Source: Daedaleopsis sinensis (Eukaryota > Basidiomycota > Agaricomycetes > Polyporales > Polyporaceae). Taken from it: DNA of 64,000 nt. Below are positions 1,896 to 55,674 of the stretch, piece after piece. The DNA lies in assembly GCA_033807695.1 (NCBI GenBank), contig CM066308.1, positions 2,232,001 through 2,296,000 of the forward strand. Reading direction: 5' to 3'. A program made the translations under genes and the position numbers. The notes beneath the pieces were generated by a model. That model did no database searches. It had not been told where the DNA came from and saw only the letters and a program-made list of their open reading frames with translations. Position 1 is the stretch's first letter. Each line of letters opens with the position of its first letter.

Positions 1896-3163
1896 ATGGA
1901 TCGGACCGCTGACCATCTCGCCGCCTTTGCTCGTCTTGCAAATCTCCGACGAGATGCTGGTGCTCGTCAGAATGCCACGGACGAACCGGACAGCTTACTG
2001 GAGATGTTGCTGAACCCAGACTTTGTTTCTTCACCTTTGGGTATCGCTGGCGAGGTACGCAGAGATGACTCGTCGTACGAAGATCTCCCACCCCTCGAAG
2101 ACGCCTCGGACGATGATCGTTCTCGCCCAACAACACCCCGCTCGTCCGGAGATAACATGCCGCCTCTCGAAGACGAGCAGACGTTATCTGTGGACTCGGA
2201 CGTCATTCCTTCTGCGGCGGAAACTCCTGCGGCGGAAACTTTTACGGCTTCACCAGTAGTCCCAAGTCCGAGTGGCGTAACTGCTTCAGCACGTTCAGCT
2301 AGGCCGCTCGTCAGCCGTGCGAGAACCGGACGTACACGGACAACCATTCCCCCATCGTCCACGGCTGCTGAAGAAGAAGAAGCCGGCGCAGATAGCGACA
2401 GCAGTCTGCCCTCGCTTCAAAGCGTGTCCGACTCCTCTGACGATGAAGACTATATTTCCGAATCCGATTGGGATGAAGAAGATAGTTTGGACGACTCCGA
2501 CGAGGAAAGCAATCTCGTGAGCCAGATGCTAGAGCAAGCCGAACGCGTGTCCGCCGAAACCTCGCGGGCTCCACTGGCTCCCATCGACTCCATGGACATC
2601 GAACTGGACAGAGACCTAGACCCGATGGGGTTCACCGCCTCGCTACAGGCATACCGGAATCTCCTAGAGAGAGCGGTGAGTCTCGATTGTGCGCATGCGT
2701 TTTCTGCAGTATTGTTCAAGTCACATTGCAGCGCACTCTAGTTCCCGATATCGACGCTCGCTTCCATCCTCCGCCGATGTGGGTTGCTGATCTGGCCATG
2801 CGTGCCACCGGCGCAGACAATGACCCCGAACGTGCGAAGACACTACTTGCTGGAATGGAAGAGGTTCCGGATGTTCTTGTGCAACGCTATGAGAAGTTGC
2901 GAACCGGGAACGAGGAAGACGTCGATGGTTGCGCAATATGTCGAGAGGACCTACTCGCCAAGGTTCCTTCGTCAACGGAGGATCCTGTGGTCGTTGCACA
3001 CTTCGTCGCTCTACCTTTTCATCCCGACCCGGACTGCATCGTAGCATTTCCATGTGCAGGCAAACACCTGTTCCACAAGGAGTGCCTCTCGCCCTGGCTA
3101 GCGCGCCGGTTCGACATCGATCCGGCCGAGTGCGGGGGATCTCCGGTGCGTGTTGCTCGCTGA
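1896..3163 (+). CDS. RING-H2 protein copy R1, truncated by array junction, last Cys pair lost
   Basis: Exon 1 is 1896-2675 and exon 2 is 2732-3163; predicted 403 aa. The N-terminal ~260 residues are acidic, Ser-rich and probably disordered. Exon 2 carries a RING-H2 finger starting at CAIC, then FPC, the two histidines of GKHLFH, and KEC. The final CPTC pair is missing because seven codons present in R2 and R4 are deleted at about 3102. After GATCCG (3124) the frame runs into array sequence and stops 12 codons later. This is the native 5' half of the RING gene, cut off from its 3' half at 33,666. A complete RING-H2 finger would mark an E3 ubiquitin ligase; this copy should not fold a complete second zinc site. 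Confidence 0.75.
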
Positions 3164-3347
3164 TGTCCGTGATGGCTAGGACTGCCAACCACAGAATTAA
3201 TGCGAGAGATAGGGAGTGCGCAGGGGTATAAGGGTGTCGAGGGGCGGGGGCGGATATGGTGGGGGGCGGGGGCTGGGCACGAGGAGCAGCAGCGTGTACA
3301 TAGGAACGAAATATATTTCGTGGCTACTCTACACACTGCGAGACAGG

Positions 3348-3400
3348 CGAGGAGGAGGAGGAGGAGGAGGAAGGGGGAGAGGGAGGAGGAGAAGGAGAAG
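3348..3400 (+). repeat. GGA-rich purine microsatellite
   Basis: A run of GGA/GAG triplets grading into AAGGGGGAGAGGGAGGAGG. It recurs with different length at 13,524-13,575 and 23,729-23,780. Confidence 0.8.
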
Positions 3401-3902
3401 GACACCTCTACTCGACATGCGCACGCACACCCGCACTCGCACTGGACACTCCGCTCGTGCAGCCCGAGAGTCCCCGTTCCATCCGCAAATCGCACTGGTC
3501 CCGTCTGCCTCGTTCGTCACCGCGTCGCGTTCGTTTGCAACCACTACCGTACACGCGGGCGCCTCCATGCCCGTTCTCGGACTGCAAGTGGACGTGCTCG
3601 CACCTAGGCTCTTCCACTGCCCACCACCTCCGTCGCTAGTGCCTCCCGTCTCCCCTCTGCACTCGCCGCTGCGCCCTGCTCTGATCTCGGGCTCTGTGCT
3701 GCCAGAGACGTCTCTGCATCCTGCCGCCATCGACTCGTCAGCCTGAGCTTCGGACTCCAGCGGAAAACACTCGGAATCGGCTCGTACCTGGTGCTCGTAT
3801 GCGACTCTTCTTGCTGGTCGAGTCTGACAATGCACTCGCCGTCCGAGTCGTCCGTTGAATCCGTCCCTCTGCTTCCGGGCCTCGTCCGTTCTATGCCTCA
3901 GC

Positions 3903-4082
3903 ACTCGCCGCCGTTCTTGTCCCTGGCTCTCGCCCGCCGTTCTTGGCCTGCCGACTCTGAATATCCGCTCGCCGTCCTTGGCTGCCGACACTGACTGTGC
4001 GCTCGCCGTCCTCGTCCGTCAACTCCGCTCGCTGTTCTTGTCCGTCAACTCCGAATATGCGCTCGCCGTCCCTGTCTACCGA
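3903..4082. repeat. Minisatellite, period about 34 bp
   Basis: Repeated modules of the type GCCGTCCTTG followed by a CCGACACTGA-like part and ending in TGCGCTC, with one 26-bp variant. The corresponding blocks are near 14,083-14,264 and 24,286-24,467. Order and number of modules differ between units. Confidence 0.65.
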
Positions 4083-4287
4083 CACTCACCTGCCTCGTCT
4101 GCCGGGGGCATCTCTCCCGCGCCGACGTCCTCTGTCCCCTGGGCTCTAGTCGCGCTCCCCGGTACCCTCGACCGTCTGATTGACTCGCGCTGTACCGACG
4201 ACTCGCCGCCGGAGGAAAAGCACGGTGACACCTGGTGACACGTTCCCGGCGCACTTAGGTGTCTCCGTGCGAGCGCGCTTCAAGCTG

Positions 4288-4300
4288 ACGCGTGACGTCA
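4288..4300. promoter_or_regulatory. Overlapping MCB and CRE palindromes
   Basis: ACGCGT (4288-4293) overlaps the CRE palindrome TGACGTCA (4293-4300). The same composite occurs in units 2 (CRE 14,462-14,469) and 3 (24,674-24,681). Binding is inference. Confidence 0.35.
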
Positions 4301-5663
4301 CTGATCCTCGGTCTCTGAGTCGACGCGTCGACAGCACTTCCTGCAGCTAGTCAGCTTCGTCGATTGCGTCAAATGCCGATGTACGTACCCACACGCGATG
4401 TCGCGCCGCCGGCCGATGACTCCTGCCTTCACCGTCTGCGCTGACAGCCGCAACCTTGCTGCCGGACCGCCGCTGCGCTACTATGTAGTGTCCGTGCGCT
4501 CATGAGTGTCGCGGTAGCCACGTCGTCACGTACAATCGGAAGAGTACCTTAACATGGTCCGTCAGTATTGTCTTGGCCCCTGTTCGCTGTTAAGGTACGT
4601 ACCCGGATGCATCATAGAATTGCGACCGACGGCCTCGTGCAAACTTCTCCGACAGTGTCGCACGAGGTCTTGTTCAGTGATCTCCTTGACGGCCGCCGTT
4701 GTGCCATGCTCATGCTGTCCGATAGAAGCTCGTTGAGGTCTGAAGTTATATGTCATACAGTTGACACGCACCTGATGAACCTTCGTGCTTCTTACGGAAG
4801 GTACGGAGTCCATCGTCCGCTATGAGAGCAGTGCAGCATCTTCCCATAGACCTCTGCAATGACGTCGTCGGCGTGTCTATCGCCTAGAGTCTGCACCAGC
4901 ATGTAAGCTCACGAGCACCCCTCAAATCATAGAAGGTGAGACTTGCGAGACTACTCACAGCATTACCCGCCCCACTGTGTGCACCTTGCATCGCGCGCCC
5001 TCCGAGTCCGTGAGTCCGGTCTTGCATCTCGTGCTAGTAGTCCAGTGCAAGGTCAGTTGATTGCGGCACATGTAAGACTCGGAGCTGTGCACGTACCTAC
5101 GAGCAGCCCTCCCAGCCGTCAAAAAAGACACATGCATCGGCGCGCGTGATCAGACACGGTGCGTACGCGTCTTGCGAAGCTCCGTCTAGACTCAGAGCGT
5201 GCTCGGGGGATGTGTCGTCGCTGGCGGTATCTATGGCCTCGGAGTCAGCCTCACGCAGTGTCCGGAAATGCTCGAGACAGACAGAATATGGGGTGTGTAC
5301 TCGACGTGTCGACACGTGCAGAAGGCCCGGAAGGACCAGCGCAAGCAGGCGAGCAATGTCTCGCCCGCAATGTGGAGCCTGAGGTGCTGAGTGTGTCTCA
5401 GCACTACGAGCAGATGAGCAGGTGGACTGTGTACTTACGAGAGCCGGCGGACATCATCAGCTCAGGCTGCAACTGTGTTGGGATGAGATGCTCGGAGAGG
5501 GAGATACAATGGAGGGAGAATCCTGTAGAGAGAGAGCAGGTGGTGGTACGTGGAGAAGGGGTGTGAGGAGGGGAAGCTACCGTTGGCTGTAAACAAACAG
5601 ACCTCGGAGTCTGGGCCCGAATTCCAGTCTCCCGACGGCCGGAGGAACTTACGTGTTCAGGAC

Positions 5664-6311
5664 CTATCGAGACACTATTCGGATGCGCCCGTAAGGAGAT
5701 TCTTCATGCCACTGAGCTTTCCCACCGCCATGGAATGTTTCAAAACTAATGCATACTGCACCGCTCCGAGAGTGATCACATTCATCCCCTCGAATCTGTG
5801 GAACTTACAAGCTGCTATCAGAGTCGAGCAGGAGAGGAATTCATGCACACAGAGAGACTTCTCTCCATGCACAGGGATTCCTACCCTGCTCGATTCTCAG
5901 GCTGGTCCATACGCCGCCGTCAGAGTGCTTCCATCAGTGGACGAGGACTCAGTCTTGGTCATGCCCGGGAGCACCGAGCCCAGAGCTCACTGCCTTGGGC
6001 GGATAGGACATCCTGTTCGGGTCAGGTACTGGAACATATTTTGGGCGGGGGATGACGTAGGTACTCACACGGAGCGGCGAACTCGAATATTGCTGCTTGA
6101 ATAGCGAGCGGAGGATTCCGTAGATTTGATGCGCCGGAACGTGGGATTCCAGCGACAGATATCGGGACAGCTCAGCAAGCCTGGAATGTTCCTCATTGAG
6201 AACGGAGCTACGAAAAATCAGCTGGTATCTTGAGAACGACTTGAACCACCTGCAGCAGAGCTCTTGAATGTCTATGCATAGAAAACATTCAGCAGTCCTT
6301 GACAGCGACAT
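5664..6311 (-). CDS. Candidate gene A, unit 1: spliced ORF of unknown function
   Basis: Four exons chain in phase: 6311-6069, 6012-5991, 5895-5809 and 5755-5664, giving 147 aa. The introns have GTGAGT, GTGAGC and GTAAGT donors, and CTGAC branch-like sites lie upstream of the first two acceptors. Exon 1 encodes an amphipathic, leucine-rich stretch (HSRLAELSRYLSLES). I recognise no family. The weak point is the third acceptor: the better CAG at 5902-5904 would add six bases and a stop codon, so the open chain needs an unusual GAG acceptor. It may be a decayed gene or chance. Confidence 0.3.
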
Positions 6312-6473
6312 GTTTGGCGGACTTACTGAGAGTTGGGGACCCCTACACCCGCGGCAGTTTGCCCATTTTGGCGGGCTCTAGTAAGCGGACCGGTACGGCG
6401 GGACATTGAGTGATTCGAGACCCAGAACAACGCTTGAAGTTGTTCAATTCGAAGGGATTCATCTTGAGCTGCA

Positions 6474-7229
6474 ATGCATCTTTACAATATTCTGGGTAAG
6501 TCTTGCTGTCCGCGCGAACATGGGCATGGGCGAGGCGAGGACGGTAGACGCGAGTGGGAAGTGGCCGGGATGAGCGTCGTGATCAAGCCACGCGTGGGTA
6601 GAACGGCGGTCCAAATACGGACAGCCATACTCACCGCCGGGCGTCTATCTCGCTCTTCCTCCCGCTGATCACTGACATTAAACTGACGCACCCCCTCAGC
6701 AGACAGGTTATTGCAGCAGCATATCATTTTGGATACTGCTCTACAATCTGAGCAACCTGTGACTCTCAAGAGCTGGTCTCAATTGCAGGCAAGTCTTGTA
6801 TTAACGTGATTTTACTCAAAACTTCGGAATTGCTGATCAATTTGCGATATACCACATTCCTGAATACGATACTGACTACAGCATGGCCTGATACAGACCT
6901 CGACATATGGGTAGCACGATCTAGGCCTCGATCCATCTCCCGCCCTTGCCGAAATTGCCAGATACCTTGCAGACGGCATTATCCACCCGGGACCCTCTCC
7001 TCGAGCCTCCTCCGCCCTAATTTACGACAGCATCACAACGAGAACCGAGTCAGACATTAGCCGAGCGCCCACGCCACTGCCCGGAGACAGCACGGAAGCT
7101 TCGATGCTCCTCCCTGCTCGGAACCTGTGGCATGCCCGTCCACACGAACAGGGTCTCCCTTCCCCTCCTCCTCATCCCCCGTGTCGCCTCCTGGTTGGTC
7201 CCGCCTCCGGCACCCCGGATCGTGCGTGA
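6474..7229 (+). CDS. Candidate gene B, unit 1: spliced ORF of unknown function
   Basis: A small exon 6474-6495 (ATG start) joins in phase to 6700-6788 across an intron with GTAAGT donor, CTGAC branch site and CTCAG acceptor. Exon 2 ends at a GC-type donor (GCAAGT). A long open stretch beginning HDLGLDPSPALAEIARYLAD runs from 6932 to 7229 after a TAG acceptor; how it joins exon 2 is uncertain. A further GTGCGT donor lies near 7224. No family recognised. Confidence 0.25.
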
Positions 7230-7380
7230 GAAGTGCCCTGTTGTCACTTCCACACGGTCGAGTCTCCTGACCGTGGGGCCTGCGCACGGGCCAGGCTCGA
7301 GGGATACAAATACGTGCGCAATCTCGTAGAGTCCGACCAGCACTCGCCACCCCCCGACTCGAGTACGTCCTCCCCTCTCC

Positions 7381-7403
7381 CTTCCCCCTTCCCCCTTCCC
7401 CCT
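7381..7403 (+). repeat. TTCCCCC microsatellite
   Basis: A short 7-bp tandem repeat. It is longer in unit 2 (17,521-17,565) and shorter in unit 3 (27,771-27,793), so length varies between units. Confidence 0.7.
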
Positions 7404-7704
7404 ACTACACTCACTCTATACTGACTATACTGCACTTGTACCTGTATATAGTACTCGACGCACTCCCCTTCGCTGACACCATTCCGAGCCCCCCCGTCCT
7501 CCTTCCTATCCCGCACGTCCGCCGCCGCCGCACTCGCTACCCCCGGACGTCGATTGGATCTGCGCGGACCACCGGCCTCACTCTTTGTCTCTCTCAGCCA
7601 CGATCTAGTCGCGAACGATATACGCGTATTGAATCTACTAGTGAGATTGCTTCCTTTTGGCTAGTGTCCTCACTTGACTGACTTCGACTTGTTTACCTTT
7701 CTAG

Positions 7705-8236
7705 CCTCTCCCTTCCGAGTCAACGTCAGACAGGCTCATTAAACGTGTACGTACAGTACTTATTGACGTTCACGTGCTACACCTCTACTGACATGCTCTC
7801 ATGTTATCTACAGATTCCGGACCTATGATTGTGGTTCGAGACTCTACGCGCACTTCAACTCGTATTCGGATGTTTGATTCATGTCTGACTACTATCTCCT
7901 TCAGATCCCCCGTAAACGACGTCAATAACAGCTATCGCACATGGCGGCGACTAGTTGTGTCTCCCGACTCGGAGGCAAGGTATGTGCGCACACCGGTCTC
8001 CTACCCAATCCGTACCAGGCTGACCAGACTTCAATCAGTCGCAGCTACATATTCCACTTAGATTCGCGAAGTAATCGCGATGCGTTCACGATTCCCGCGA
8101 GCTACAGGTGCGTACAACTTGTACATCTGCGTGCGCGGTATCCAATGCATGAATAACTTTGTCCATTCGCAGGACCAGCTCTCGGTCCCGCACACCGGAG
8201 GTCGTGTCGCGTCCGGCGCACTCGCCGGCATCCTAG
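7705..8236 (+). pseudogene. Candidate gene C, unit 1: broken by loss of a splice donor
   Basis: Matches the five-exon chain described for unit 3 (28,096-28,648). Here about 20 bases covering the end of exon 2 and its GTACGT donor are absent (near 7850), so the chain cannot be spliced as in units 2 and 3. Confidence 0.3.
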
Positions 8237-8289
8237 AATGTCACCGCGACTCGAGCAGTACGTCGCCGCCTTCGCGCCATGCGTGCTAG

Positions 8290-8826
8290 CCTGCACATCT
8301 CCGCGAACGCTGACCGTCCCGTTTCTCAGATCCCCGTGTACGATTCCGCGCGACTCGTGAGTCCGACACACGAGCATAATCTCAGATGCGCACGCCCGAC
8401 GTGAGTACGTCCCCGTGTCCGCTGTGTTGGTACAGATGCTGACTTGCCCTTCAATCTCGCAAGGCTGCTGGTGTAGATGGAGGAGAGTTTGGACGTGAAC
8501 ACCTGCCAATGGCATCGGCGTGCTACGCCCCTGACAAGACACAGTGTGAGTCGAAATCAATTCGTGCCAGCTTGGACATCTCCCCGAACGCTGACCGCCT
8601 TTCAGGTTCCCGTGTACAGTGGCGAACGTGAGCGCGAACTTGCAAGTCGCACACGAGCACGAGCATGATCTCAGATGCACACGCCCCACGTACGTACGTC
8701 CCGAACCGTGTCTGCAGACTCGGAGGCCGTGCTGACTTGACCTGCAACCTCAGACAGCTGCCGACGTAGACCGTGACGGACTCGACTCGGACGTGCACGG
8801 CTGGCATTGACGTGCTACGGCGTTCC
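8290..8826 (+). repeat. Internal tandem duplication of an exon pair (two copies of about 270 bp)
   Basis: Two neighbouring segments (about 8290-8560 and 8561-8826) share the order GAACGCTGACCG, a CAG acceptor, CCCGTGTAC, GATCTCAGATG, a GT donor, GCTGACTTG, an acceptor, then GGCATCGGCGTGCTAC or GGCATTGACGTGCTAC, then CAA..GTGAGTCGA. The duplication is present in all three units. Confidence 0.6.
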
Positions 8827-9167
8827 TAACAAGCAACGTGAGTCGATATCACTCTCGCGCCGCTGGTCCGGCTCCTCGCCTTGAGGCTTGAGTACTTGAG
8901 TTCTGACACTGGCTGCTGTACAGGCGGCCTCCGAGTGCCGACTGAACGCGTTCCGGGCAAGTCCGCGGCTGGTGGCCGCTACGCACCGAGCTCGATTCGC
9001 GCTCGCACCCGTGCAGAACAGGTGTGTCCGGCCAGTCTCCGTCCAGCCTGAGCCCGATTCGCGCTGACGGCAGTCGCCGCACCTCCTCGTTCGCACTCGA
9101 ATCGCGCGCAGCTCCGAGGGAGAGTAGGATTGGCTGTACTGCATTATATCTACGTACCGTACGATAG
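8675..9167 (+). pseudogene. Candidate gene D, unit 1: in-frame TGA in exon 2
   Basis: Matches the four-exon chain intact in unit 3 (29,089-29,581). Here the second exon reads CAT TGA CGT where unit 3 has CAT CGA CGT, giving a stop at 8808-8810. CGA to TGA is the change expected from deamination at a CpG. The rest of the chain stays open to the TAG at 9165-9167. Confidence 0.3.
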
Positions 9168-9189
9168 GACTGCGCTCATGTACTGTGCC

Positions 9190-10240
9190 ACGCCGACCCG
9201 CTGTCCCCGACAGTGCCGCCGTCCGTGCTCGGCCCGTCCCCGCAGGCCGTCCATCGCGCTCGCGCAGACCTCACGCACGCGTCCGTGCCGTCGTGCGTGC
9301 CGTTGCGGGACCACTGGTCCGGCGACGGGCCCATTCGCGTGCGGGATGGCGGACGTCTTCGACGCCGTGATGCTCGAGCGCGATGTGCTCGGAGCCCTCT
9401 CGAGCTCGATTGACGGCGGGAGGTCTTCGGGGCCTCGGGCGGGTTGGCACCCCGCCCGCGTACAGCCCAACCCCATCCGACGCATCCCGCCACTCGGGAC
9501 GCGCCGCTGGCGCAGACGTCTTGGTGCCGTTGCGAGCCCACGAGTCTGGAGACCGGCGTCGGGACTCGCGCGCGGGCTGGGCGGACTCGGAGGGCTCTTG
9601 ACCGACGGCGGGGATGCTCCCGACGGCGAGCCCTCGCGCGCGCGCTGCCAGAGGATCGGCCAGCGTCGGGATCCCGGCGCCGCGGGGCGACAGAGACGGA
9701 GACGGAGACAGAGACGGTCGGCAGTCAGGCCGCGGGGACAGCCTGAGCGGGCTGTCGTCCGGACTCCGGACAGCGGGTGGCCTGAGTTTGGGCTGGGGCG
9801 CGCACCGTGTTGCCTCCCGCGTCTGAGCTCCGAGAGGGTGGCCGTCACCGTGAGCCGTGCACGTCGGGCGGGCCTGGGACGGAGTGATGGGCGTGGACGT
9901 TCGCTAGCGGGCGGGCGGGCAGGCGGGGCGTCGTTCGTGAGTTCGTGAGTTCGTGAGTTCGGCCATGGGCCCCGCCCGCGCGGACGTTGGTTCCCGCGTG
10001 TCGTACGGCCCGGACGGCTTCGAAAGCGTGTGCACGCTACTCGTCGAGCGTGTCGGTGTCGGTGTCGAGTCTGCGCGCACCGGACGGCCGGGATAAGCTG
10101 TACAGTGAGTTCGGGGCCACGCCGCACGCGCAAGCGGCCGATTTTCAGACCTCGCATCCGGGGCCCGGAAACCGGTCGTACGTGTGCGGTGCAGTCAGCG
10201 CATGCGCGCTGTATGAGTCTCGCGGCTCGGCGGGGCGTCG
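9190..10240. other. GC-rich island in the unit body, no assignable gene
   Basis: Very GC-rich and CpG-rich. Long ORFs are open on both strands at once because stop codons are rare in such sequence. It includes a GACGGA-type 6-bp repeat near 9700 and a 9-bp repeat (GAGTTCGTG) at 9933-9960. Equivalent stretches lie at about 19,400-20,470 and 29,600-30,630. I see no motif that favours one frame. Confidence 0.5.
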
Positions 10241-11640
10241 TGTGGACGGAATACGGTGCTCACCGGCATCTCCGGGGCCCATGAAATCGCTGTGAAAGTG
10301 AATTTCGTGACCTCGTCGGATCGGGCGGCGACCGGGCGCGTTGGACGCGGAGTGTGCGGCGCATTCTGGTGGTATGAGTTAGCACGCGTGATGATGGATA
10401 TTGGAAGGGTTGTTACAGATTTCGTGCCGGGCGGCACAGAGATCGGGGTGCAGCCGTCGACTACGACGGCGGCAACGGCGGGGAACGTCGCCGTGAAGCG
10501 TCCGAGAGTCGTTCGGGGTGTAGTCGAGTGGGACAGTTGAGTCCCAGCCGGATGGGAGTGAAATGGTGACGAAAGAGTCGGACAGGGTGAAAAATGCAAT
10601 GAAATCGAAGATTTTGAAGCAATCTTGAAAGTCGTCGGATTGCGGCGCAAATGGAAGGGCTGGTAGAGACCGTTCACGGCATGCTTGTAGTCGTAGTTTG
10701 CCGGCCGGAGGAGGTCGGGAGCGAGGATGGGGAGAGTTCTTGACCTCGGGTGCACAGTGTTTGGGTTGTGGGCGGACGGAGAGTCGCCGCGGGGCGACGA
10801 GGCGCATATCGCCGAGTTCGGACGTTCGAGGGCTACCGGACACAGCTGATTTTGGGCTGATCCGTGTCGAAGCGGATGCGCTATGTCGAAATCTCTGTCG
10901 CGGCGGACATGAGATTTGGCCTACTCGGGCACGGAGGGATCGAGTTTCTGTGTTGTGGGTGAGTATGAGGCGAGCGGAGGAGAGTGAGGGGCGGACAGAC
11001 CTGAGAAGACGGGCGGGAAGCGAGGGACGGAGGGACGAGGGGATGGCGAACTGACCTGAGGAGGCGAGAGGACGGACGCGAGGCTCGGGACGGAAGCACA
11101 TCACGCGGCATTGATATGAGCAATGTACTAGATTGGGTGTATAGATACGATTACAAGCAGCGTAGTAAGAGAGAGCGAAGAGCGCGGATGGAGGGACGAC
11201 GCGGGCGGCGGCGTGAGGACTCGAGGACGGGCGGGGAGGAACTGAGGGAGTAAGGGCGTACCATAGATCACAGTGAGCAGCGACAGGTGGCCATTCGCGA
11301 TCGGTAGCCATGGCACGAGGGAAGGGAGATTTGCAAGTCGCAGCTCCCCCCCGGTGGGTCTTCTTCTGCGGACTTGCCTGTTATGGAGCCAGGGGGACGG
11401 AGGGAAGGCGAGGTTTGTTGATGAAGGCGCACAGCTGGCGCGGCAAACGGAATCGAATACGAGCTTGATTTGGCTGTATGTACGAGTACAGGCACGGTAG
11501 TAAGAGGGAAGGGCGAGAGCGGGCGGACGGACGGACGGAGGCAAGCGGTGTGAGAACGGGAGGAGGGGACAGGGACAGGGAGCGAGGGAGAGAGCGTAGG
11601 GAGGAGGCACGTCAGCGAGCACGCAGCGGACAGGGAGTCA
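10240..11640. other. Unit body, strand-asymmetric purine-rich section, no assignable gene
   Basis: From about 10,960 the + strand is dominated by G and A (GGACGGAGGGACGAGG-like), so the - strand is pyrimidine-rich with several CAG acceptor-like ends. Open frames of 100-310 codons exist on the - strand (for example 10,379-11,311), but two other frames are equally open. I make no coding call. Confidence 0.4.
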
Positions 11641-11798
11641 TGGCCACCGTGCGCGGGCAGCTCGTGCGGGTCCTGTTCGGGTGGGCGAGTGCGAGTCGAG
11701 AGGCGTGCAACAGCGGCGGCGAGTGCGAGAGAGTGTGCGAGTGGGATCGAGCTGTGTTGTAGACGGCCCTTCTCGAGATAGATTGCGGTCGGGGACAT
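11640..11798 (-). pseudogene. Deacetylase 5' relic, unit 1
   Basis: Begins MSPTAIYL like the real deacetylase at 1659 and keeps LQH and AAAVARL. The RPERLRAI block between them is lost through an internal deletion, and similarity fades after about residue 45. It cannot encode a deacetylase. Confidence 0.8.
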
Positions 11799-12030
11799 CC
11801 TTGGGGCTGCACAGAAGGTGGTGGTTTGGAGTTCGGTTACGGACAGACGCGTCGCGCGTCAGAAGATACGTCGGAGACTCAATGTTGCTTTCGGAACATG
11901 AACCTGAGCATTCAGACGCCCATTTCGTATTCCAGAGTCCTCCAACCTTGTCTCCGCCCCCTTCCGCTGCCCCCCTCACTCGATTCCTGTTGCAGCACAA
12001 GCTACTGGCGTTGAACATTGACCGAACGAC
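11799..12030. promoter_or_regulatory. Copy of bidirectional promoter, unit 1
   Basis: 232 bp between the relic start codon and the R2 start codon, nearly the same as 1660-1895 and including the C-rich stretch. Confidence 0.65.
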
Positions 12031-16471: not shown

Positions 16472-16633
16472 GTTCGGCGGACTTACTGAGAGTTGGGGAC
16501 CCCTACACCCGCGGCAGTTTGCCCATTTTGCCGGGCTCTAGTAAGCGGACCGGTACGGCGGGACATTGAGTGATTCGAGACCCAGAACAACACTTGAAGT
16601 TGTTCAATTCGAAGTGATTCATCTTGAGCTGCA

Positions 16634-21865: not shown

Positions 21866-22024
21866 ATGGCCACCGTGCGCGGGCAGCTCGTGCGGGTCCT
21901 GTTCGGGTGGGCGAGTGCGAGTCGAGAGGCGTGCAACAGCGGCGGCGAGTGCGAGAGAGTGTGCGAGTGGGATCGAGCTGTGTTGTAGACGGCCCTTCTC
22001 GAGATAGATTGCGGTCGGGGACAT
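21866..22024 (-). pseudogene. Deacetylase 5' relic, unit 2
   Basis: Same decayed fragment as at 11,640-11,798, and translated identically to it. Confidence 0.8.
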
Positions 22025-22256
22025 CCTTGGGGCTGCACAGAAGGTGGTGGTTTGGAGTTCGGTTACGGACAGACGCGTCGCGCGTCAGAAGATACGTCGG
22101 AGACTCAATGTTGCTTTCGGAACATGAACCTGAGCATTCAGACGCCCATTTCGTATTCCAGAGTCCTCCAACCTTGTCTCCGCCCCCTTCCGCTGCCCCC
22201 CTCACTCGATTCCTGTTGCAGCACAAGCTACTGGCGTTGAACATTGACCGAACGAC
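22025..22256. promoter_or_regulatory. Copy of bidirectional promoter, unit 2
   Basis: Interval between the relic start and the R3 start. I see no difference from 11,799-12,030. Confidence 0.65.
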
Positions 22257-23545: not shown

Positions 23546-26077
23546 TGTCCGTGATGGCTAGGACTGCCAACCACAGAATTAATGCGAGAGATAGGGAGTG
23601 CGCAGGGGTATAAGGGTGTCGAGGGGCGGGGGCGGATATGGTAGGGGGGCGGGGGCTGGGCACGAGGAGCAGCGTGTACGTAGGAACGAAATATATTTTG
23701 TGGCTACTCTACACACCGCGAGACAGGTGAGGAGGAGGAGGAGGAGGAAGGGGGGAGAGGGAGGAGGAGAAGGAGAAGGACACCTCTACTCGACATGCGC
23801 ACGCACACCCGCACTCGCACTGGACACTCAGCCCGTGCAGCCCGAGAGTCCCCGTTCCATCCGCAAATCGCACTGGCCCCGTCTGGCTCGTTCGTCACCG
23901 CGTCGCGTTCGTTTGCAACCACTACCGTACACGCGGGCGCCTCCATGCCCGTTCTCGGACTGCAAGTGGACGTGCTCGCACCTAGGCTCTTCCACTGCCC
24001 ACCACCTCCGTCGCTAGTGCCTCCCGTCTCCCCTCTGCACTCGCCGCTGCGCCCTGCTCTGATCTCGGGCTCTGTGCTGCCAGAGACATCTCTGCATCCT
24101 GCGGCCATTGACTCGTCAGCCTGAGCTTCGGACTCCAGCGGAAAACACTCGCAATCGGCTCGTACCTGGCAGTGCTCGTATGCGACTCTTCTTGCTGGTC
24201 GAGTCTGACAATGCACTCGCCGTCCGAGTCGTCCGTTGAATCCGTCCCTCTGCTTCCGGGCCTCGTCCGTTCTATGCCTCAGCACTCGCCGCCGTTCTTG
24301 TCCCTGGCTCTCGCCCGCCGTTCTTGGCCTGCCGACACTGACTGTGCGCTCGCCGTCCTTGTTCGTCGACTCGGACTGTGCGTTCGCAGTCCTCGTCCGT
24401 CAACTCCGCTCGCTGTTCTTGTCCGTCAACTCCGAATATGCGCTCGCCGTCCCTGTCTACCGACACTCACCTGCCTCGTCTGCCGGCGGCATCTCTCCCA
24501 CGCCGACGTCCTCTGTCCCCTGGGCTCTAGTCGCGCTCCCCGGTACCCTCGACCGTCTGATTGACTCGCGCTGTACCGACGACTCGCCGCCGGAGGAAAA
24601 GCACGGTGACACCTGGTGACACGTTCCCGGCGCACTTAGGTGTCTCCGTGCGAGCGCGCTTCAAGCTGACGCGTGACGTCACTGATCCTCGGTCTCTGAG
24701 TCGACGCGTCGACAGCACTTCCTGCAGCTAGTCAGCTTCGTCGATTGCGTCAAATGCCGATGTACGTACCCACACGCGACGTCGCGCCGCCGGCCGATGA
24801 CTTCCGCCTTCACCGTTCGCGCTGACAACCGCAACCTTGCTGCCGGACCGCCGCCGCGCTACTATGTAGCATCCGCGCGCTCATGAGTGTCGCGGTAGCC
24901 ACGTCGTCACGTACAATCGGAAGAGTACCTTAACATGGTCCGTCAGTATTGTCTTGGTCCCCGTTCGCTGTCAAGGTACGTACCCGGATGCATCATAGAA
25001 TTGCAACCGACGGCCTCGCGCGAACTTCGTCGACAGTGTCACACGAGGTCTTGTTCAGTGATCTCCTTGACGGCCGCCGTTGTGCCATGATCATGCTGGC
25101 CGATAGAAGCTCGTTGAGGTCTGAAGTTATATGTCATACAGTTGACACGCACCTGATGAACCTTCGTGCTTCTTACGGAAGGTACGGAGTCCATCGTCCG
25201 CTATGAGAGCAGTGCAGCATCTTCCCATAGACCTCTGCAATGACGTCGTCGGCGTGTCTATCGCCTAGAGTCTGCACCAGCATGTAAGCTCACGAGCACC
25301 CCTCAAATCATAGAAGGTGAGACTTGCGAGACTACTCACAGCATTACCCGCCCCACTGTGTGCACCTTGCATCGCGCGCCCTCCGAGTCCGTGAGTCCGG
25401 TCTTGCATCTCGTGCTAGCAGTCCAGTGCAAGATCAGTTGATTGCAGCACATGTAAGACTCGGAGCTGCGCATATACCTACGAGCAGCCTGACCAGCCGT
25501 CAATAAAGACACATGCATCGGCGCGCGTGATCAGACACGGTGCGTACGCGTCTTGCGAAGCTCTGTCTAGACTCCGAGTCGGATAACACCACCGTTTTCG
25601 ACTCGAAGCGTGCTCGGGGGATGTGTCGTTGCTGGCGGTATCCATGGCCTCGGAGTCGGCCTCATGCAGTGTGCGAACATGCTCGAGACAGACAGAATAT
25701 GGGGCGTGTCCGAGACGTGCTGACACGTGCAGAAGGCCCGGACTTGGAAGGACCAGCGCAAGCAGGCGAGCTTGAATGTCTCGCCCGCAATGTGGAGGTG
25801 CTGAGCATTGTGTCTCAGTACTTACTACGAGCAGATGAGCAGGTGGACTGTGTACTCACGAGAGCCGGCGGACATCATCAGCTGCAACTGTGTTGGCATG
25901 AGATGCTCGGAGAGGGAGATACAACAGAGGGAGAATCCTGTAGGGAGAGAGCAGGTAGTGGTACGTGGAGAAGGGGTGCGAGGAGGGGAAACTACCGTTG
26001 GCTGTAAACAAACAGACCTCGGAGTCTGGGCCCGAATTCCAGTCTTCCGATGGCCGGAGGAACTTACGTGTTCAGGA

Positions 26078-26721
26078 CTAGTATCGAGACGCTATTCGGA
26101 TGCGCCCGTAAGGAGATTCTTCATGCCGCTGAGCTTTCCCACCGCCATGGAATGTTTCAACACTAATGCATACTGCACCGCTCCGAGAGTGATCACATTC
26201 ATCCCCTCGAATCTGTGGAACTTACAAGCTGCTATCAGAGTCGAGCAGGAGAGGAATTCATGCACATGGAGAGATGTCTCTCCATGCACAGGGATTCCTA
26301 CCCTGCTCGATTCTGGTCCATACGCCGCCGTCAGAGTGCTTCCATCAGTGGACGAGGACTCAGTCTGGGTCATGCCCGGGAGCACCGAGCCCAGAGCTCA
26401 CTGCCTTGGGCGGATAGGACATCCTGTTCGGGTCAGGTACTGGAACATATTTTGGGCGGGGGATGACGTAGGTACTCACACGAGCGGCGAACTCGAATAT
26501 TGCTGCTTGAATAACGAACGGAGGATTCCGTAGATTTGATGCGCCGGAACGTGGGATTCCAGCGACAGATATCGGGACAGCTCAGCAAGCCTGGAATGTT
26601 CCTCATTGAGAACGGAGCTATGAAAACACAGCTGGTATCTTGAGAACGACTTGAACCACCTGCAGCAGAGCTCTTGAATATCTATGCATAGAGAACAATC
26701 AGCAGTCTTTGACAGCGACAT
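26078..26721 (-). pseudogene. Candidate gene A, unit 3: frameshifted at exon 1 end
   Basis: One base is missing at the end of exon 1 (around 26,482) compared with units 1 and 2, which puts exons 2-4 out of frame. Exon 3 has the clean CCAG acceptor that the other units lack. So no unit holds a fully convincing version. Confidence 0.28.
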
Positions 26722-26883
26722 GTTCGGCGGACTTACTGAGAGTTGGGGACCCCTACACCCGCGGCAGTTTGCCCATTTTGGCGGGCTCTAGTAAGCGGAC
26801 CGGTACGGCGGGACATTGAGTGATTCGAGACCCAGAACAACGCTTGAAGTTGTTCAATTCGAAGGGATTCATCTTGAGCTGCA

Positions 26884-27620
26884 ATGCATCTTTACAATAT
26901 TCTGGGTAAGTCTTGCTGTCCGCGCGAACATGGGCATGGGCGAGGCGAGGACGGTAGACGCGAGTGGGAAGGATCAAGCCACGCGTGGGTAGAACGGCGG
27001 TCCAAATACGGACAGCCATACTCACCGCCGGGCGTCTATCTCGCTCTTCCTCCCGCTGATCACTGACATTAAACTGACGCACCCCCTCAGCAGACAGGTT
27101 ATTGCAGCAGCATATCATTTTGGATACTGCTCTACAATCTGAGCAACCTGTGACTCTCAAGAGCTGGTCTCAATTGCAGGCAAGTCTTGTATTAACGTGA
27201 TTTTACTCAAAACTTCGGAATTGCTGATCAATTTGCGATATACCACATTCCTGAATACGATACTGACTACAGCATGGCCTGATACAGACCTCGACATATG
27301 GGTAGCACGATCTAGGCCTCGATCCATCTCCCGCCCTTGCCGAAATTGCCAGATACCTTGCAGACGGCATTATCCACCCGGGACCCTCTCCTCGAGCCTC
27401 CTCCGCCCTAATTTACGACAGCATCACAACGAGAACCGAGTCAGACATTAGCCGAGCGCCCACGCCACTGCCCGGAGACAGCACGGAAGCTTCGATGCTC
27501 CTCCCTGCTCGGAACCTGTGGCATGCCCGTCCACACGAACAGGGTCTCCCTTCCCCTCCTCCTCATCCCCCGTGTCGCCTCCTGGTTGGTCCCGCCTCCG
27601 GCACCCCGGATCGTGCGTGA
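26884..27620 (+). CDS. Candidate gene B, unit 3
   Basis: Same small ATG exon, second exon with GC-type donor, and long open stretch at about 27,323-27,620, whose sequence is closer to unit 1 than to unit 2. Function unknown. Confidence 0.22.
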
Positions 27621-28095
27621 GAAGTGCCCTGTTGTCACTTCCACACGGTCGAGTCTCCTGACCGTGGGGCCTGCGCACGGGCCAGGCTCGAGGGATACAA
27701 ATACGTGCGCAACCTCGTAGAGTCCGACCAGCACTCGCCACCCCCCGACTCGACTACGTCCTCCTCTCTCCCTTCCCCCTCCCCCCTTCCCCCTATTACA
27801 CTCACTATATACTGACTATACTGCACTTGTACCTGTATATAGTACTCTATGCACTCCCCTTCGCCGACACCGTTCCGAGCCCCCTCTTCCTCATTTCTAT
27901 CCCGCACGTCCGCCGCCGCCGCTCTCGCTACCCCCGCACATCGATTGGATCTGTGCAGACCACCGGCCTCACTCTTGTTTCTCTCAGCCACGATCTAGTC
28001 GCGAACGATATACGCGTATTGAATCTACTAGTGAGTTCGGTTCTTTTTTGGCTAGTGTCCTCACTTGACTGACTTCGACTTGTTTACCTTTCTAG

Positions 28096-28648
28096 CCTCT
28101 CCCTTCCGAGTCAACGTCAGACATGCTCATTGAACGTGTACGTACAGTACTTATTGACATTCGTGTGCTGCACTTCTACTGACATGCTCTCATGTTATCT
28201 ACAGATTCCGGACCTATGATTGTGGTCCGAGACTTTACACGCATGGCGATCTACAGGTACGTCTCTTCAACTCGTATTCGGACGTTTGATTGATGTCTGA
28301 CTACTATCTACTATAGATCCCCCGTGAACGACGTCAAGAACAGCTATCGCACATCGCGACTAGTAGTTGCGTCCCCCGACTCGGAGGCGAGGTATGTGCG
28401 CACACCGGTCTCCTACCCAATCCGTACCAGGCTGACCAGACTTCAATCAGTCGCAGCTACATATTCCACTTAGATTCGCGAAGTAATCGCGATGCGTTCA
28501 CGATTCCCGCGAGCTACAGGTGCGTACAACTTGTACATCTGCGTGCGCGGTATCCAATGCATGAATAACTTTGTCCATTCGCAGGACCAGCTCTCGGTCC
28601 CGCACACCGGAGATCGTGTCGCGTCCGGCGCACTCGCCGGCATCCTAG
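28096..28648 (+). CDS. Candidate gene C, unit 3: five-exon open chain of unknown function
   Basis: Exons 28,096-~28,141, 28,205-28,256, 28,317-28,391, 28,451-28,519 and 28,585-28,648 read through without a stop (phrases SGPMIVVRDFTR, SRSYIFHLDSRS, then TAG). Exons 2-5 share phase 2 junctions with GTACGT, GTATGT and GTGCGT donors. The exon 1 donor is ambiguous: the strongest GTACGT gives the wrong phase, and a neighbouring GT site is needed. No start codon is fixed; more exons may lie upstream of 28,030. No family recognised. Confidence 0.35.
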
Positions 28649-29088
28649 AATGTCACCACGAGAGCGGTACGTCGCCGCCTTCGCTACATGCGTGCTAGCC
28701 TGGACATCTCCGCGAACGCTTACCGCCCCGCTTTTCAGATACCCGTGTTCGGTTCCGCGCGACTCGTGAGTCCGACACACGAGCATAATCTCAGATGCGC
28801 ACGCCCGACGTGAGTACGTCCCCGTGTCCGCTGTGTTGGTACAGATGCTGACTTGCCCTTCAATCTCGCAAGGCTGCTGGTGTAGATGGAGGAGAGTTTG
28901 GACGTGAACACCTGCCAATGGCATCGGCGTGCTACGCCCCTGACAAGTCGGACATGTGAGTCGAAAGACATTCGTGCTAGCTTGGACATCTCCCCGAACG
29001 CTGACCGTCCCGTTTCTCAGATCCCCGTGTACGATTCCGAACGCGAGCGCGACTCGCGAGTCGCACACGAGCACGAGCATGATCTCAG

Positions 29089-29581
29089 ATGCACACGCCC
29101 CACGTACGTACGTCCCGAACCGTGTCTGCAGACTCGGAGGCCGTGCTGACTTGTCCTGCAACCTCAGACGGCTGCCGACGTAGACCGTGACGGACTCGAC
29201 TCGGACGTGCACGGCTGGCATCGACGTGCTACCACGCTCCTAACAAGCAACGTGAGTCGAGATCACTCTCGCGCCGCTGGTCCTGCTCCTCGCCTTGAGG
29301 CTTGAGTACTTGAGTTCTGACACTGGCTGCTGTACAGGCGGCCTCCGAGTGCCGACTGAACGCGTTCCGGGCAAGTCCGCGGCTGGTGGCCGCTACGCAC
29401 CGAGCTCGATTCGCGCTCGCACCCGTGCAGAACAGGTGTGTCCGGCCAGTCTCCGTCCAGCCTGAGCCCAATTCGCGCTGACGGCAGTCGCCGCACTTCC
29501 TCGTTCGCACTCAAATCGCGCGCAGCTCCGATGGAGAGTAGGATTGGCTGTACTGCATTATATCTACGTACCGTACGATAG
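29089..29581 (+). CDS. Candidate gene D, unit 3: four-exon ORF of 96 aa, unknown function
   Basis: Exons 29,089-29,103, 29,168-29,251, 29,338-29,435 and 29,488-29,581 give a complete frame from ATG to TAG. Introns are GT-AG; two have CTGAC branch-like sites. The product contains DVDRDGLDSDVHGWHRRAT and an Arg/Ala-rich C-terminal half. There is no signal peptide or known domain. Units 1 and 2 carry a stop in exon 2, while indels in exon 4 keep the frame. It may be the 3' part of a longer transcript including the duplicated upstream exons. Confidence 0.38.
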
Positions 29582-32024
29582 GACTGCGCTCATGTACTGT
29601 GCCACGCCGACCCGCTGTCCCCGACAGTGCCGCCGTCCGTGCTCGGCCCGTCCCCGCAGGCCGTCCATCGCGCTCGCGCAGACCTCACGCACGCGTCCGT
29701 GCCGTCGTGCGTGCCGTTGCGGGACCACTGGTCCGGCGACGGGCCCATTCGCGTGCGGGATGGCGGACGTCTTCGACGCCGTGATGCTCGAGCGCGATGT
29801 GCTCGGAGCCCTCTCGAGCTCGATTGACGGCGGGAGGTCTTCGGGGCCTCGGGCGGGTTGGCACCCCGCCCGCGTACAGCCCAACCCCATCCGACGCATC
29901 CCGCCACTCGGGACGCGCCGCTGGCGCAGACGTCTCGGTGCCGTTGCGAGCCCACGAGTCTGGAGTCCGGCGTCGGGACTCGCGCGCGGGCTGGGCGGAC
30001 TCGGAGGGCTCTCGACCGACGGCGGGGATGCTCCCGACGGCGAGCCCTCGCGCGCGCGCTGCCAGAGGATCGGCCAGCGTCGGGATCCCGGCGCCGCGGG
30101 GCGACAGAGACGGAGACGGAGACGGAGACGGTCGGCAGTCAGGCCGCGGGGACAGCCTGAGCGGGCTGTCGTCCGGACTCCGGACAGCGGGTGGCCTGAG
30201 TTTGGGCTGGGGCGCGCACCGTGTTGCCTCCCGCGTCTGAGCTCCGAGAGGGCGGCCGTGCCGTGAACCATGCACGTCGGGCGGGCCTGGGACGGAGTGA
30301 TGGGCGTGGACGTTCGCTAGCGGGCGGGCGGGGCGTCGTTCGTGAGTTCGTGAGTTCTGCCATGGGCCCCGCCCGCGCGGACGTTGGTTCCCGCGTCGTG
30401 TACGACCTCGAAAGCGTGTGCACGCTAGTCGTCGAGCGTATCGGTGTCGAGTCTGCGCGCACCGGACGGCCGGGATAAGCTGTACAGTGAGTTCGGGGCC
30501 ACGCCGCACGCGCATGCGGCCGATTTTCAGACCTCGCATCCGGGGCCCGGAAACCGGTCGTACGTGTGCGGTGCAGTCAGCGCATGCGCGCTGTATGATA
30601 TTCGCGGCTCGGCGGGGCGTCGTGTGGACGGAATACGGTGCTCACCGGCATCTCCGGGGCCCATGAAATCGCTGTGAAAGTGAATTTCGTGACCTCGTCG
30701 GATCGGGCGGCGACCGGGCGCGTTGGACGCGGAGTGTGCGGCGCATTCTGGTGGTATGAGTTAGCACGCGTGATGATGGAAACTGGAAGAGTTATTGCGG
30801 ATTTTGTGCCGGGCGGCACAGAGATCGGGGTGCAGCCGTCGACTACGACGGCGGCAACGGCGGGGAACGTCGCCGTGAAGCGTCCGAGAGTCGTTCGGGG
30901 TGTAGTCGAGTGGGACAGTTGAGTCCCAGCCGGATGGGAGTGAAATGGTGACGAAAGAGTCGGACAGGGTGAAAAATGCAATGAAATCGAAGGTTTTGAA
31001 GCAATTTTGGAAGTCGTCGGAATGCGGCGCAAATGAAAGGGCTGGTAAAGACCGTTCACGGCATGCTTGTAGTCGTAGTTTGCCGGCCGGAGGAGGTCGG
31101 GAGCGAGGATGGGGAGAGTTCTTGACCTCGGGTGCACAGTGTTTGGGTTGTGGGCGGACGGAGAGTCGCCGCGGGGCGACGAGGCGCATATCGCCGAGTT
31201 CGGACGTTCGAGGGCTACCGGACACAGCTGATTTTGGGCTGATCCGTGTCGAAGCGGATGCGCTATGTCGAAATCTCTGTCGCGGCGGACATGATATTTG
31301 GCCTACTCGGGCACGGAGGGATCGAGTTTCTGTGTTGTGGGTGAGTATGAGGCGAGCGGAGGAGAGTGAGGGGCGGACAGACCTGAGAAGACGGACGGGA
31401 AGCGAGGGACGGAGGGCTCGGGACGAGGGGATGGCGAACTGACCTGAGGAGGCAGGGGGGACGGACGCGAGGCTCGGGACGGAAGGACATCACGCGGCAT
31501 TGATATGAGCAATGTACTAGATTGGGTGTATAGATACGATTACAAGCAGCGTAGTAAGAGAGAGCGAAGAGCGCGGATGGAGGGACGACGCGGGCGGCGG
31601 CGTGAGGATTCGAGGACGGGCGGGGAGGAACTGAGGGAGTAAGGGCGTACCATAGATCACAGTGAGCAGCGACAGGTGGCCATCGGTAGCCATGACACGA
31701 CGGAAGGGAGAGATTTGCAAGTCGCAGCTCCCCCCCGGTGGGTCTTCTTCTGCGGACTTGCCTGTTATGGAGCCAGGGGGACGGAGGGAAGGCGAGGTTT
31801 GTTGATGAAGGCGCACAGCTGGCCCGGCAAACGGAATCGAATACGAGCTTGATTTGGCTGTATGTACAAGTACAGGCACGGTAGTAAGAGGGAAGGGCGA
31901 GAGCGGGCGGGCGGACGGGCGCAGGCAAGCGGCGTGAGAACGGGAGGAGGGGACAGGGACAGGGAGCGAGGGAGAGAGCGTAGGGGGGACGTACGACAGT
32001 GGGCACGCAGCGGACAGGGAGTCC

Positions 32025-32183
32025 ATGGCCACCGTGCGCGGGCAGCTCGTGCGGGTCCTGTTCGGGTGGGCGAGTGCGAGTCGAGAGGCGTGCAACAGCG
32101 GCGGCGAGTGCGAGAGAGAGTGCAAGTGGGATCGAGCTGTGTTGTAGACAGCCCTTCTCGAGATAGATTGCGGTCGGGGACAT
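32025..32183 (-). pseudogene. Deacetylase 5' relic, unit 3
   Basis: Same decayed fragment. In this unit the relic start codon opens a 306-codon frame (32,183-31,263) that runs into the unit body. Confidence 0.75.
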
Positions 32184-32415
32184 CCTTGGGGCTGCACAGA
32201 AGGTGGTGGTTTGGAGTTCGGTTACGGACAGACGCGTCGCGCGTCAGAAGATACGTCGGAGACTCAATGTTGCTTTCGGAACATGAACCTGAGCATTCAG
32301 ACGCCCATTTCGTATTCCAGAGTCCTCCAACCTTGTCTCCGCCCCCTTCCGCTGCCCCCCTCACTCGATTCCTGTTGCAGCACAAGCTACTGGCGTTGAA
32401 CATTGACCGAACGAC
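32184..32415. promoter_or_regulatory. Copy of bidirectional promoter, unit 3
   Basis: Interval between the relic start and the R4 start. This copy would drive the only full-length RING gene. Confidence 0.65.
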
Positions 32416-35075
32416 ATGGATCGGACCGCTGACCATCTCGCCGCCTTTGCTCGTCTTGCAAATCTCCGACGAGATGCTGGTGCTCGTCAGAATGCCACGG
32501 ACGAACCGGACAGCTTACTGGAGATGTTGCTGAACCCAGACTTTGTTTCTTCACCTCTGGGTATCGCTGGCGAGGTACGCAGAGATGACTCGTCGTACGA
32601 AGATCTCCCACCCCTCGAAGACGCCTCGGACGATGATCGTTCTCGCCCAACAACACCCCGCTCGTCCGGAGATAACATGCCGCCTCTCGAAGACGAGCAG
32701 ACGTTATCTGTGGACTCGGACGTCATTCCTTCTGCGGCGGAAACTCCTGCGGCGGAAACTTCTACGGCTTCACCAGTAGTCCCAAGTCCGAGTGGCGTAA
32801 CTGCTTCAGCACGTTCAGCTAGGCCGCTCGTCAGCCGTGCGAGAACCGGACGTACACGGACAACCATTCCCCCATCGTCCACGGCTGCTGAAGAAGAAGA
32901 AGCCGGCGCAGATAGCGACAGCAGTCTGCCCTCGCTTCAAAGCGTGTCCGACTCCTCTGACGATGAAGACTATATTTCCGAATCCGATTGGGACGAAGAA
33001 GATAGTTTGGACGACTCCGACGAGGAAAGCAATCTCGTGAGCCAGATGCTAGAGCAAGCCGAACGCGTGTCCGCCGAAACCTCGCGGGCTCCACTGGCTC
33101 CCATCGACTCCATGGACATCGAACTGGACAGAGACCTAGACCCGATGGGGTTCACCGCCTCGCTACAGGCATACCGGAATCTCCTAGAGAGAGCGGTGAG
33201 TCTCGATTGTGCGCATGCGTTTTCTGCAGTATTGTTCAAGTCACATTCCAGCGCACTCTAGTTCCCGATATCGACGCTCGTTTCCATCCTCCGCCGATGT
33301 GGGTTGCTGATCTGGCCATGCGTGCCACCGGCGCAGACAATGACCCCGAACGTGCGAAGACACTACTTGCTGGAATGGAAGAGGTTCCGGATGTTCTTGT
33401 GCAACGCTATGAGAAGTTGCGAACCGGGAACGAGGAAGACGTCGATGGTTGCGCAATATGTCGAGAGGACCTACTCGCCAAGGTTCCTTCGTCAACGGAG
33501 GATCCTGTGGTCGTTGCACACTTCGTCGCTCTACCTTTTCATCCCGACCCGGACTGCATCGTAGCATTTCCATGTGCAGGCAAACACCTGTTCCACAAGG
33601 AGTGCCTCTCGCCCTGGCTAGCTAGGAAGACCACTTGTCCCACGTGCCGGTTCGACATCGATCCGTTGTCGTTGACCTTGCAAATCACCAGGAGTATTCG
33701 TGATCCGGGAGGGCACGATCATGAAACAGAGGTACTCGGGCCTGAACGTGTCTGGCAACCTCCACAATCTGAGACTTTGAGCGACTGGCTTTTCGCTGAA
33801 GAACAAGCGCAGGAAGCGGGTGTTCCGCGTACCCGACCTGCAGTACGCATGCCAGAATGTGAGTACAACTTAGGGTAGTTCACGAGCACCTATTGATTGC
33901 GTTATACAGATCCATCACTGGCCACAGCGACAACGACTGCAACAAGTGGTGCACCTCCACCTAGGCCTGCGCGACCGATGGGAGCGATACTTGACTTGTT
34001 CGATTCGTCCCCGCTGTTCTCTCCTCTTCCACCGGCGGGGCCGTGGGAACTGAACGACGGACATATCCAGCTCCCTGCCGGGCATACCCCATCCCGTACC
34101 TACCAGGAATTGAGTCAGAGGCTGGTCGATCTAGAGGCCAGGCGAATGCAGCTAGAGAGCGATGTCATGCCGATCCTCTCTACTCACAGACCCACGGTGC
34201 CTCCCCGTTCACCCTCTGCTCCCCCAAACCCTTCAGCCGGGACGCCTCCTCCACGGTCCGACCTATACGCACCTCTGCCTCCTATGGAGCACGGCGTGTT
34301 CAGGGAACTGGCGAGACATGCCGAACGAGACTTGAGCCATTTCCTGTCGTCGCCTCCGTTGGATGACGCCTCCAGTGTCCATCCCCTTGCGTCTACACAC
34401 AGCGATGATCCCTCCACGCATTTGCACAACACACCGCTCGTCTTGTCTCATCCGCCAAACGAAATCGATGTCAACGTCCTGGCCGCGAATCCCACTCGCC
34501 ATGTCCAACGTGATGCTGGTGGACATCGGTCACGCCGTGCTACTCCCTCGGCATCCTCATCGCCGGCTGTGCCAATGCCATCCTCATCCACTGCAAGAGG
34601 TCCGGATGACCCGTCCAGCTCTTCAACCCCACTGTTCCGCACGCTAAGTGGCCCGCTCAGCGACATTGCCAGCCGCTATATGGAGCTCGCGAGAGCTACT
34701 GCAGCTCTTCAAGGACGCTTAGCGACACCTGCAGCACCTCTTGTCCCTTCGTTCCCTCGGCGATCTGACGACGAGCGCGATGGCATGCACAGAAGCCGTG
34801 AGACTGGTCCCACCACACCTGCCACGTCTCTAACACGCTATTCTTCATCCACTGTCGTTTCGTCGACTTCTATGACTACTGTCATCGTCGATGGCCACCC
34901 CATACATGATGTTCACCAGCACACGGAAGTGCGGAGGACTGATACTGCATCTCCTGGTGGACGTCCCACAACCCAGCACGGCCACAGCGGGGGGGTCGGT
35001 GGGCGACAGCCGCGGTCCGCGCCAGGCGGCGCTGGTGCTCTCCCGGATTACAACCCTGCGGACGACTGGGACTGA
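32416..35075 (+). CDS. RING-H2 protein, full-length copy R4
   Basis: Putative E3 ubiquitin ligase. Exons are 32,416-33,195, 33,252-33,858 and 33,910-35,075; predicted 850 aa. Residues 1-260 are acidic and Ser-rich (SDSSDDEDY, DWDEEDSLDD). The RING-H2 finger follows (CAIC ... FPCAGKHLFHKEC ... CPTC) with all eight ligands. The C-terminal ~430 residues are Pro/Ser/Thr-rich and look disordered, ending in a Gly-rich GGVGGRQPR segment. The sequence leaves R1-R3 just after GATCCG at 33,665, which shows where the array was inserted. All introns are GT-AG. Ligase activity is inferred from the finger; partner and substrate are unknown. Confidence 0.85.
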
Positions 35076-55670: not shown

Positions 55671-55674
55671 GGCG

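Follow-up and report, generated by a model that had tools for sequence, protein, structure and literature searches.

Helitrons include non-autonomous copies, capture gene fragments and can form head-to-tail arrays, traits shared in part by the arrays described here; their hallmarks are a 5' TC, a 3' CTRR end and insertion between A and T. LARD and TRIM, the non-coding derivatives of LTR elements, resemble the sequences of this work in their long non-coding interior with conserved sequence. In fungal transformation, single-crossover integration of circular plasmids gives S-(B-S)n structures (in the notation used below) with duplicated homology. Helitrons and tandem Helitron arrays, as treated in part of PMC4289320, were taken as a compared system. 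The macrosatellites D4Z4 and DXZ4 share with the present arrays the large tandem units, and DXZ4 is described as not obviously protein coding in passages of PMC3018141 and PMC3218863. In contrast to D4Z4 and DXZ4, the family reported here has more than 20 dispersed loci, and in the seven that were read the units include host promoter DNA specific to the locus.

The window, i.e. the whole stretch of 64,000 nucleotides of Daedaleopsis sinensis that was analysed, is free of N bases and hosts an array in which three units of 10.14-10.23 kb, placed head to tail, precede a partial fourth of 1.5 kb (Table 1). A sequence-only reading had described the array, and the analysis confirms it; kilobase units in head-to-tail order make it, as that reading held, a macrosatellite in the anatomical sense. 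Each full unit consists of 1.5 kb of host DNA, called S, which holds the 5' end of a histone deacetylase gene (first codons, minus strand), a shared divergent promoter and exons 1-2, the 5' half, of a RING-H2 gene, followed by a body of about 8.6 kb, called B. Four S and three B alternate in the order S-B-S-B-S-B-S, or (S-B)3-S. The array had been thought to start at 3125; homology begins instead at about 1613, within the deacetylase start, and the span is 1613-33665. The GATCCG hexamer does mark the junctions: the RING homology of R1 stops there (3119-3124), as it does in R2 and R3, and R4 runs on from there into the gene (33660-33665). Differently from a ribosomal DNA array, the unit contains no rRNA genes (Rfam, gathering level). 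At that level, the sole Rfam match in the window is one tRNA gene outside the array (55674-55767, minus strand; anticodon unresolved by ARAGORN). A LINE encoding endonuclease, reverse transcriptase and RNase H (Pfam) lies to the right of the array (37067-43080, minus strand), and has a second ORF without Pfam match.

Table 1. Features of the window and loci built on the same plan (window coordinates, or contig and position)
Feature	Position	Strand	Remarks
R1	1613-11751	+	full unit (S+B)
R2	11752-21977	+	full unit (S+B)
R3	21978-32136	+	full unit (S+B)
R4	32137-33665	+	partial unit, S only
S copy 1	1613-3124	+	deacetylase 5' end (-), divergent promoter, truncated RING exons 1-2
B copy 1	3125-11751	+	homologues in other arrays
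S copy 2	11752-13301	+	truncated RING copy, RING-H2 ligands complete
B copy 2	13302-21977	+	
S copy 3	21978-23506	+	truncated RING copy, last two ligands deleted
B copy 3	23507-32136	+	
S copy 4 (= R4)	32137-33665	+	runs on into intact RING gene
Histone deacetylase gene, N-terminal part	1-1659	-	PF00850; extends left beyond window
Intact RING-H2 gene, 850 aa	32416-35072	+	exons 32416-33195, 33252-33858, 33910-35072; Pfam RING
Left-end motif of B	3162-3214 (also 13339-13391, 23544-23596)	+	
TATA-like motif of B	3227-3242 (also 13404-13419, 23609-23624)	+	
Hairpin HP1	5820-5897 (also about 15986-16063, 26237-26314)	+	
HP2 conserved block	6563-6680	+	weak structure; matched in 16/18 other loci sampled
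Most conserved B block	7090-7330	+	74-84% identity in 16/18 other loci sampled
Conserved right-hand block of B	9900-10915	+	
Window locus			host genes: deacetylase/RING
Locus	C9:1.97M		host genes: TAF6/F-box
Locus	C8:3.15M		pyridine nucleotide-disulphide oxidoreductase; single-unit S-B-S locus
Locus	C12:0.81M		DNA primase/ABC transporter; ABC domain scores slightly under its Pfam cut-off
Locus	C9:0.78M		protein kinase
Locus	C10:1.11M		PUF-like gene; Pfam match below cut-off
Locus	C2:4.69M		heat-shock-factor-like gene, by eye

The RING gene had been regarded as split by the array. Since R4 and the right flank encode the whole 850-aa protein behind its own copy of the promoter, the gene is rather partly duplicated (its intron ends are inferred, and an alternative acceptor gives 844 aa). 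R1, R2 and R3 carry truncated duplicates of 403, 417 and 410 aa, all finishing with an identical short tail encoded by B; R1 and R3, unlike R2, have a 21-bp deletion that removes the last two zinc ligands. Among the 45 relatives of the RING protein listed, the best is from Daedaleopsis nitida (76% identical over 100% of the query). In the alignment with D. nitida and three other polypores, the protein is unbroken across the junction, and continuous through both the CRFDIDP and SLTL residues which flank it. Contiguity in the relatives makes the S-to-R order the older state at this locus, and backs the empty site (L-S-R) previously drawn on paper; for the window locus, a B-free state is thus shown at the level of protein continuity.

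The bodies are 97.5% (R1/R2) or 97.0% (R1/R3, R2/R3) identical. The 382 informative sites of R1-R3 fall in 101 runs, compared with a mean of 255 and a minimum of 220 in 2000 shuffles. Judged from the sequences of the units, this patchwork shows that exchange or conversion occurred among them. Of the two routes contemplated by the sequence-only reading, a circular intermediate or unequal exchange, the patchwork favors exchange, or conversion, for the upkeep of the array, and a circle keeps some plausibility as a source. The array might be an assembly artefact, as long tandem repeats are difficult to assemble, and a 1.60% heterozygous k-mer rate is reported, in a part of PMC10826855, for a D. 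sinensis strain called monokaryotic. Yet simple assembly duplication does not give a patchwork divergence of 2.5-3% between copies, arrays occur at many loci, each with a different S, and the genome probably corresponds to a published assembly obtained from PacBio Sequel reads and Hifiasm (51.67 Mb, 24 contigs, in the same part of PMC10826855). Overall, an artefact seems highly improbable. The passages of PMC10826855 giving the total tandem-repeat content leave these arrays unmentioned, and a literature search which missed most subscription journals found no account of similar arrays.

Though the window array had been implicitly treated as a one-off, a pattern search of the genome (51,596,361 bases, 24 contigs) identifies B as a member of a genome-wide family of similar arrays. 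Pieces of B recur elsewhere at about 10-kb spacing. The pattern derived from the most conserved B block has 78 matches, and no control match, in 23 clusters on 12 contigs (C2-C13); two or more matches are present in 18 clusters, one in 5, and matches within a cluster are all on one strand. Grouping into clusters is ours, C8:3371k having been joined to 3410-3440k, and C10:2373k to 2320-2339k. Beyond the 23 clusters, B is matched at C6:3.73M and C4:2.87M. Neighbour spacings (n=52; a 20.5-kb spacing and the still wider gaps C8:3371-3410k and C10:2339-2373k were set aside) range from 9.8 to 14.2 kb with a median of 10.6 kb; most clusters are arrays with a period of about 10 kb, reaching up to about eight units. 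As many as 40 of the 52 spacings measure 9.7-11.2 kb, despite an S of 1.5-3.3 kb at the seven loci read. B copies are alike inside each locus read; between loci, blocks are mostly 65-84% identical, and much is unalignable, the C9:1.97M and C11:2.67M bodies being 81% identical over 5.3 kb. The arrays at C13:4-24k and C8:3.41-3.44M are identical in pattern sequence over the portion compared, and both have a spacing of 9782 bp; the former may be a broken-off piece of the latter.

Seven loci, listed in Table 1, have both array ends readable, and S is found at both ends in all of them. The arrays at C8:2.5M and C11:2.67M, read without both ends, and the loci read only as a 2-kb inner piece are outside this count. 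At the seven loci the (S-B)n-S plan is thus constant, and S varies from locus to locus in sequence and in length (1.5-3.3 kb); at C8:3.15M the first copy measures about 2.2 kb, the second 2.8 kb. Drift and indels make certain S boundaries imprecise. S segments of the seven loci match none of the other array sequences compared. Besides its four copies at home, the window S is matched in the genome by a relic on C4 (75%) and, over 35 bp, at one further place. Open frames, inspected by eye, place B behind the 5' portion of a gene of like orientation at six of the seven loci, and S ends inside the gene at five of these (by eye), C9:1.97M being the sixth; at C9:0.78M the kinase gene runs the opposite way (by eye). 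At C2:4.69M a 137-kb inversion has its breakpoint in the last S, whose two parts reside at C2:4709k and C2:4847k (C2:4845501-4850500).

The left end of B is similarly placed at different loci. In 5 of the 7 the S-to-B junction is found 36-74 bp before the left-end motif (0-2 mismatches), which argues for a discrete element. The motif has 22 exact genome matches, and none in the control; every one of them belongs to an array locus, and 8 of the 23 clusters are represented. Two loci depart from the rule: at C8:3.15M the motif is recognizable only at 4 mismatches and the TATA-like motif is absent, and at C9:0.78M the motif lies 184 bp from the junction. The TATA-like motif has 61 genome matches, 59 of which at array loci, and one control match. 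At unit starts of C11:2.67M, a 28-bp piece including this motif is itself repeated, and the exact motif occurs 13, 6 and 1 times in three units. Right junctions were seen at four loci; the idea that the right end of B is a diverged S was rejected (seven comparisons, six loci, z -0.9 to 3.2).

We favor, with moderate confidence, the hypothesis that B is a dispersed and apparently non-coding element, that kilobases of host DNA were duplicated when it integrated, and that unequal exchange or conversion followed. According to this view, B would enter host DNA at or near the 5' region of a gene, and 1.5-3.3 kb of host sequence would be duplicated upon entry, for example by template-switching repair synthesis, yielding L-S-B-S-R. 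As S is duplicated on both sides of B, a host gene with its promoter in S is complete at one end of the array. The long S and B repeats would then permit unequal exchange and gene conversion, and (S-B)n-S arrays may be formed, in which copies are kept alike within a locus and different between loci. The patchwork, the dispersal over 23 clusters and the single-unit locus at C8:3.15M speak in favor of insertion followed by exchange, as do the plan common to the seven loci, their locus-specific S, the similarly placed left end and the unbroken RING protein of the relatives. We infer that B is mobile as an element, that its integration duplicated S, and that it is transcribed. Against B being an element stand the lack of a transposase domain in the ORFs analyzed and of a terminal inverted repeat at three loci, and the two of seven loci departing from the left-end rule; kilobase-long target duplications are not known as a normal product of transposition.

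Differently from TIR DNA transposons, B exhibits no terminal inverted repeats better than shuffles at the three loci analyzed (scores reached in 155, 300 and 240 of 300 shuffles). B is flanked by repeats of host DNA that differ by locus, and not by the shared LTRs of LTR elements and LARDs. In contrast to LINEs and SINEs, B has no Pfam match in 10 body ORFs, and no 3' tail at the junctions read. Integrated plasmids differ too, the present arrays being natural and located at many loci.

Alternatively, B may be mobilized together with the adjacent S through a circular or rolling-circle route, in which copying would start at a fixed left end and, the right end being loose, run on into host DNA. 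Such read-through capture would generate a circle or a concatemer (B-S)n, which might recombine by homology with an allele of S to give S-(B-S)n. A single scheme would account for the head-to-tail order, the similarly placed left end, the variable end of S inside genes and the terminal S. The relic on C4 (2866335-2869048, minus strand) contains sequence of the right end of B followed by 88 N-terminal RING residues (65% identity, one stop), which resembles the outcome of moving a window-type B-S unit, and hints that B and S may have moved together once, though the relic could have another origin. However, B may differ from Helitrons in that no Helitron 5' signature was seen at the left junctions read, where no shared TC or A/T site is apparent (six loci, by eye), and S derives, on both sides, from the array's own locus. 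Moreover, when an older captured flank was sought at C9:0.78M, only B-family units (its own five copies and seven C3 units) and C9:982k (85%) matched, giving no support to older S relics. We regard this route as rather unlikely, though a serious rival to insertion followed by exchange.

Segmental duplication by template switching may do without any mobile element, repair synthesis copying a piece of B from elsewhere and then returning to S. Duplicated flanks are typical of template-switching events, and no long homology was found at the S-B junctions read. Random switching would not produce the 36-74 bp distance between junction and motif that 5/7 loci share for the left end of B, and the hypothesis appears quite improbable.

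B is apparently non-coding. The early remark that the body carries no transposase or reverse transcriptase holds: the 10 ORFs of copy 1 have no Pfam match, and no protein relatives were retrieved at E 0.1 with two queries. Coding was rejected by several analyses. Comparison of one unit with five loci by tblastx revealed no consistent frame; codons scanned in the best block at 17 loci gave a z of 3.2 at most, and indels of a length not divisible by three are frequent there (by eye); pN/pS ranged from 0.60 to 1.71 in five pieces and all six frames. Hints for coding are the lowest pN/pS values on the plus strand, 0.60 (window 7270-7350, one stop) and 0.67 (7195-7260, no stops), and a peptide-like stretch, at about 6954-7130, alike in many loci.

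A functional non-coding RNA encoded by B, such as the precursor of a small RNA, could be the reason why the arrays are maintained, a hypothesis compatible with the others, which we deem unlikely. The candidate is HP1, a strongly conserved hairpin, aligned from 9 sequences of 8 loci. Its alignment folds with z scores of -11.8 (plus strand) and -12.0 (minus strand), reached by none of 100 shuffles and the lowest among 208 windows scanned over six loci; 6 of 32 pairs show a double Watson-Crick change, and a TATA-like motif is found at unit starts. The word of the 5' arm occurs 12 times in the genome, always in arrays, with one control match. Yet G-U (24) and A-C (19) cells are similarly frequent on the plus strand; hence there is no strand signal, and the counts fail to tell RNA from DNA. 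In addition, HP1 was not found at 10 of the 19 loci sampled, where several stretches may stop before it, and two of the nine loci with HP1 have partial matches. The 7090-7330 block is weak as a structured RNA (z -2.3, 3/100 shuffles reach the score). An Rfam match to mir-491 at HP1, on the minus strand, scores 29.7 bits against a gathering score of 62, and was not counted, as were not two weaker Rfam matches elsewhere in the unit. Five stretches taken from other loci had no Rfam match at E 0.1.

Tentatively, and with doubts like those on the circular route, B may be viewed as representative of a new class of non-coding mobile element, in which the left end is fixed and bears a promoter, whereas copying runs out past the right end into adjacent host DNA and returns by homology; the arrays so built would multiply host promoters and front halves of genes, the host gene remaining intact. 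Such arrays would reveal how tandem arrays can originate and disperse with no gene being broken. At many places in one genome the arrays multiply promoters and truncated genes of the host, and the gene types involved include RING, F-box, heat-shock-factor-like, ABC transporter, PUF-like, oxidoreductase and kinase genes.
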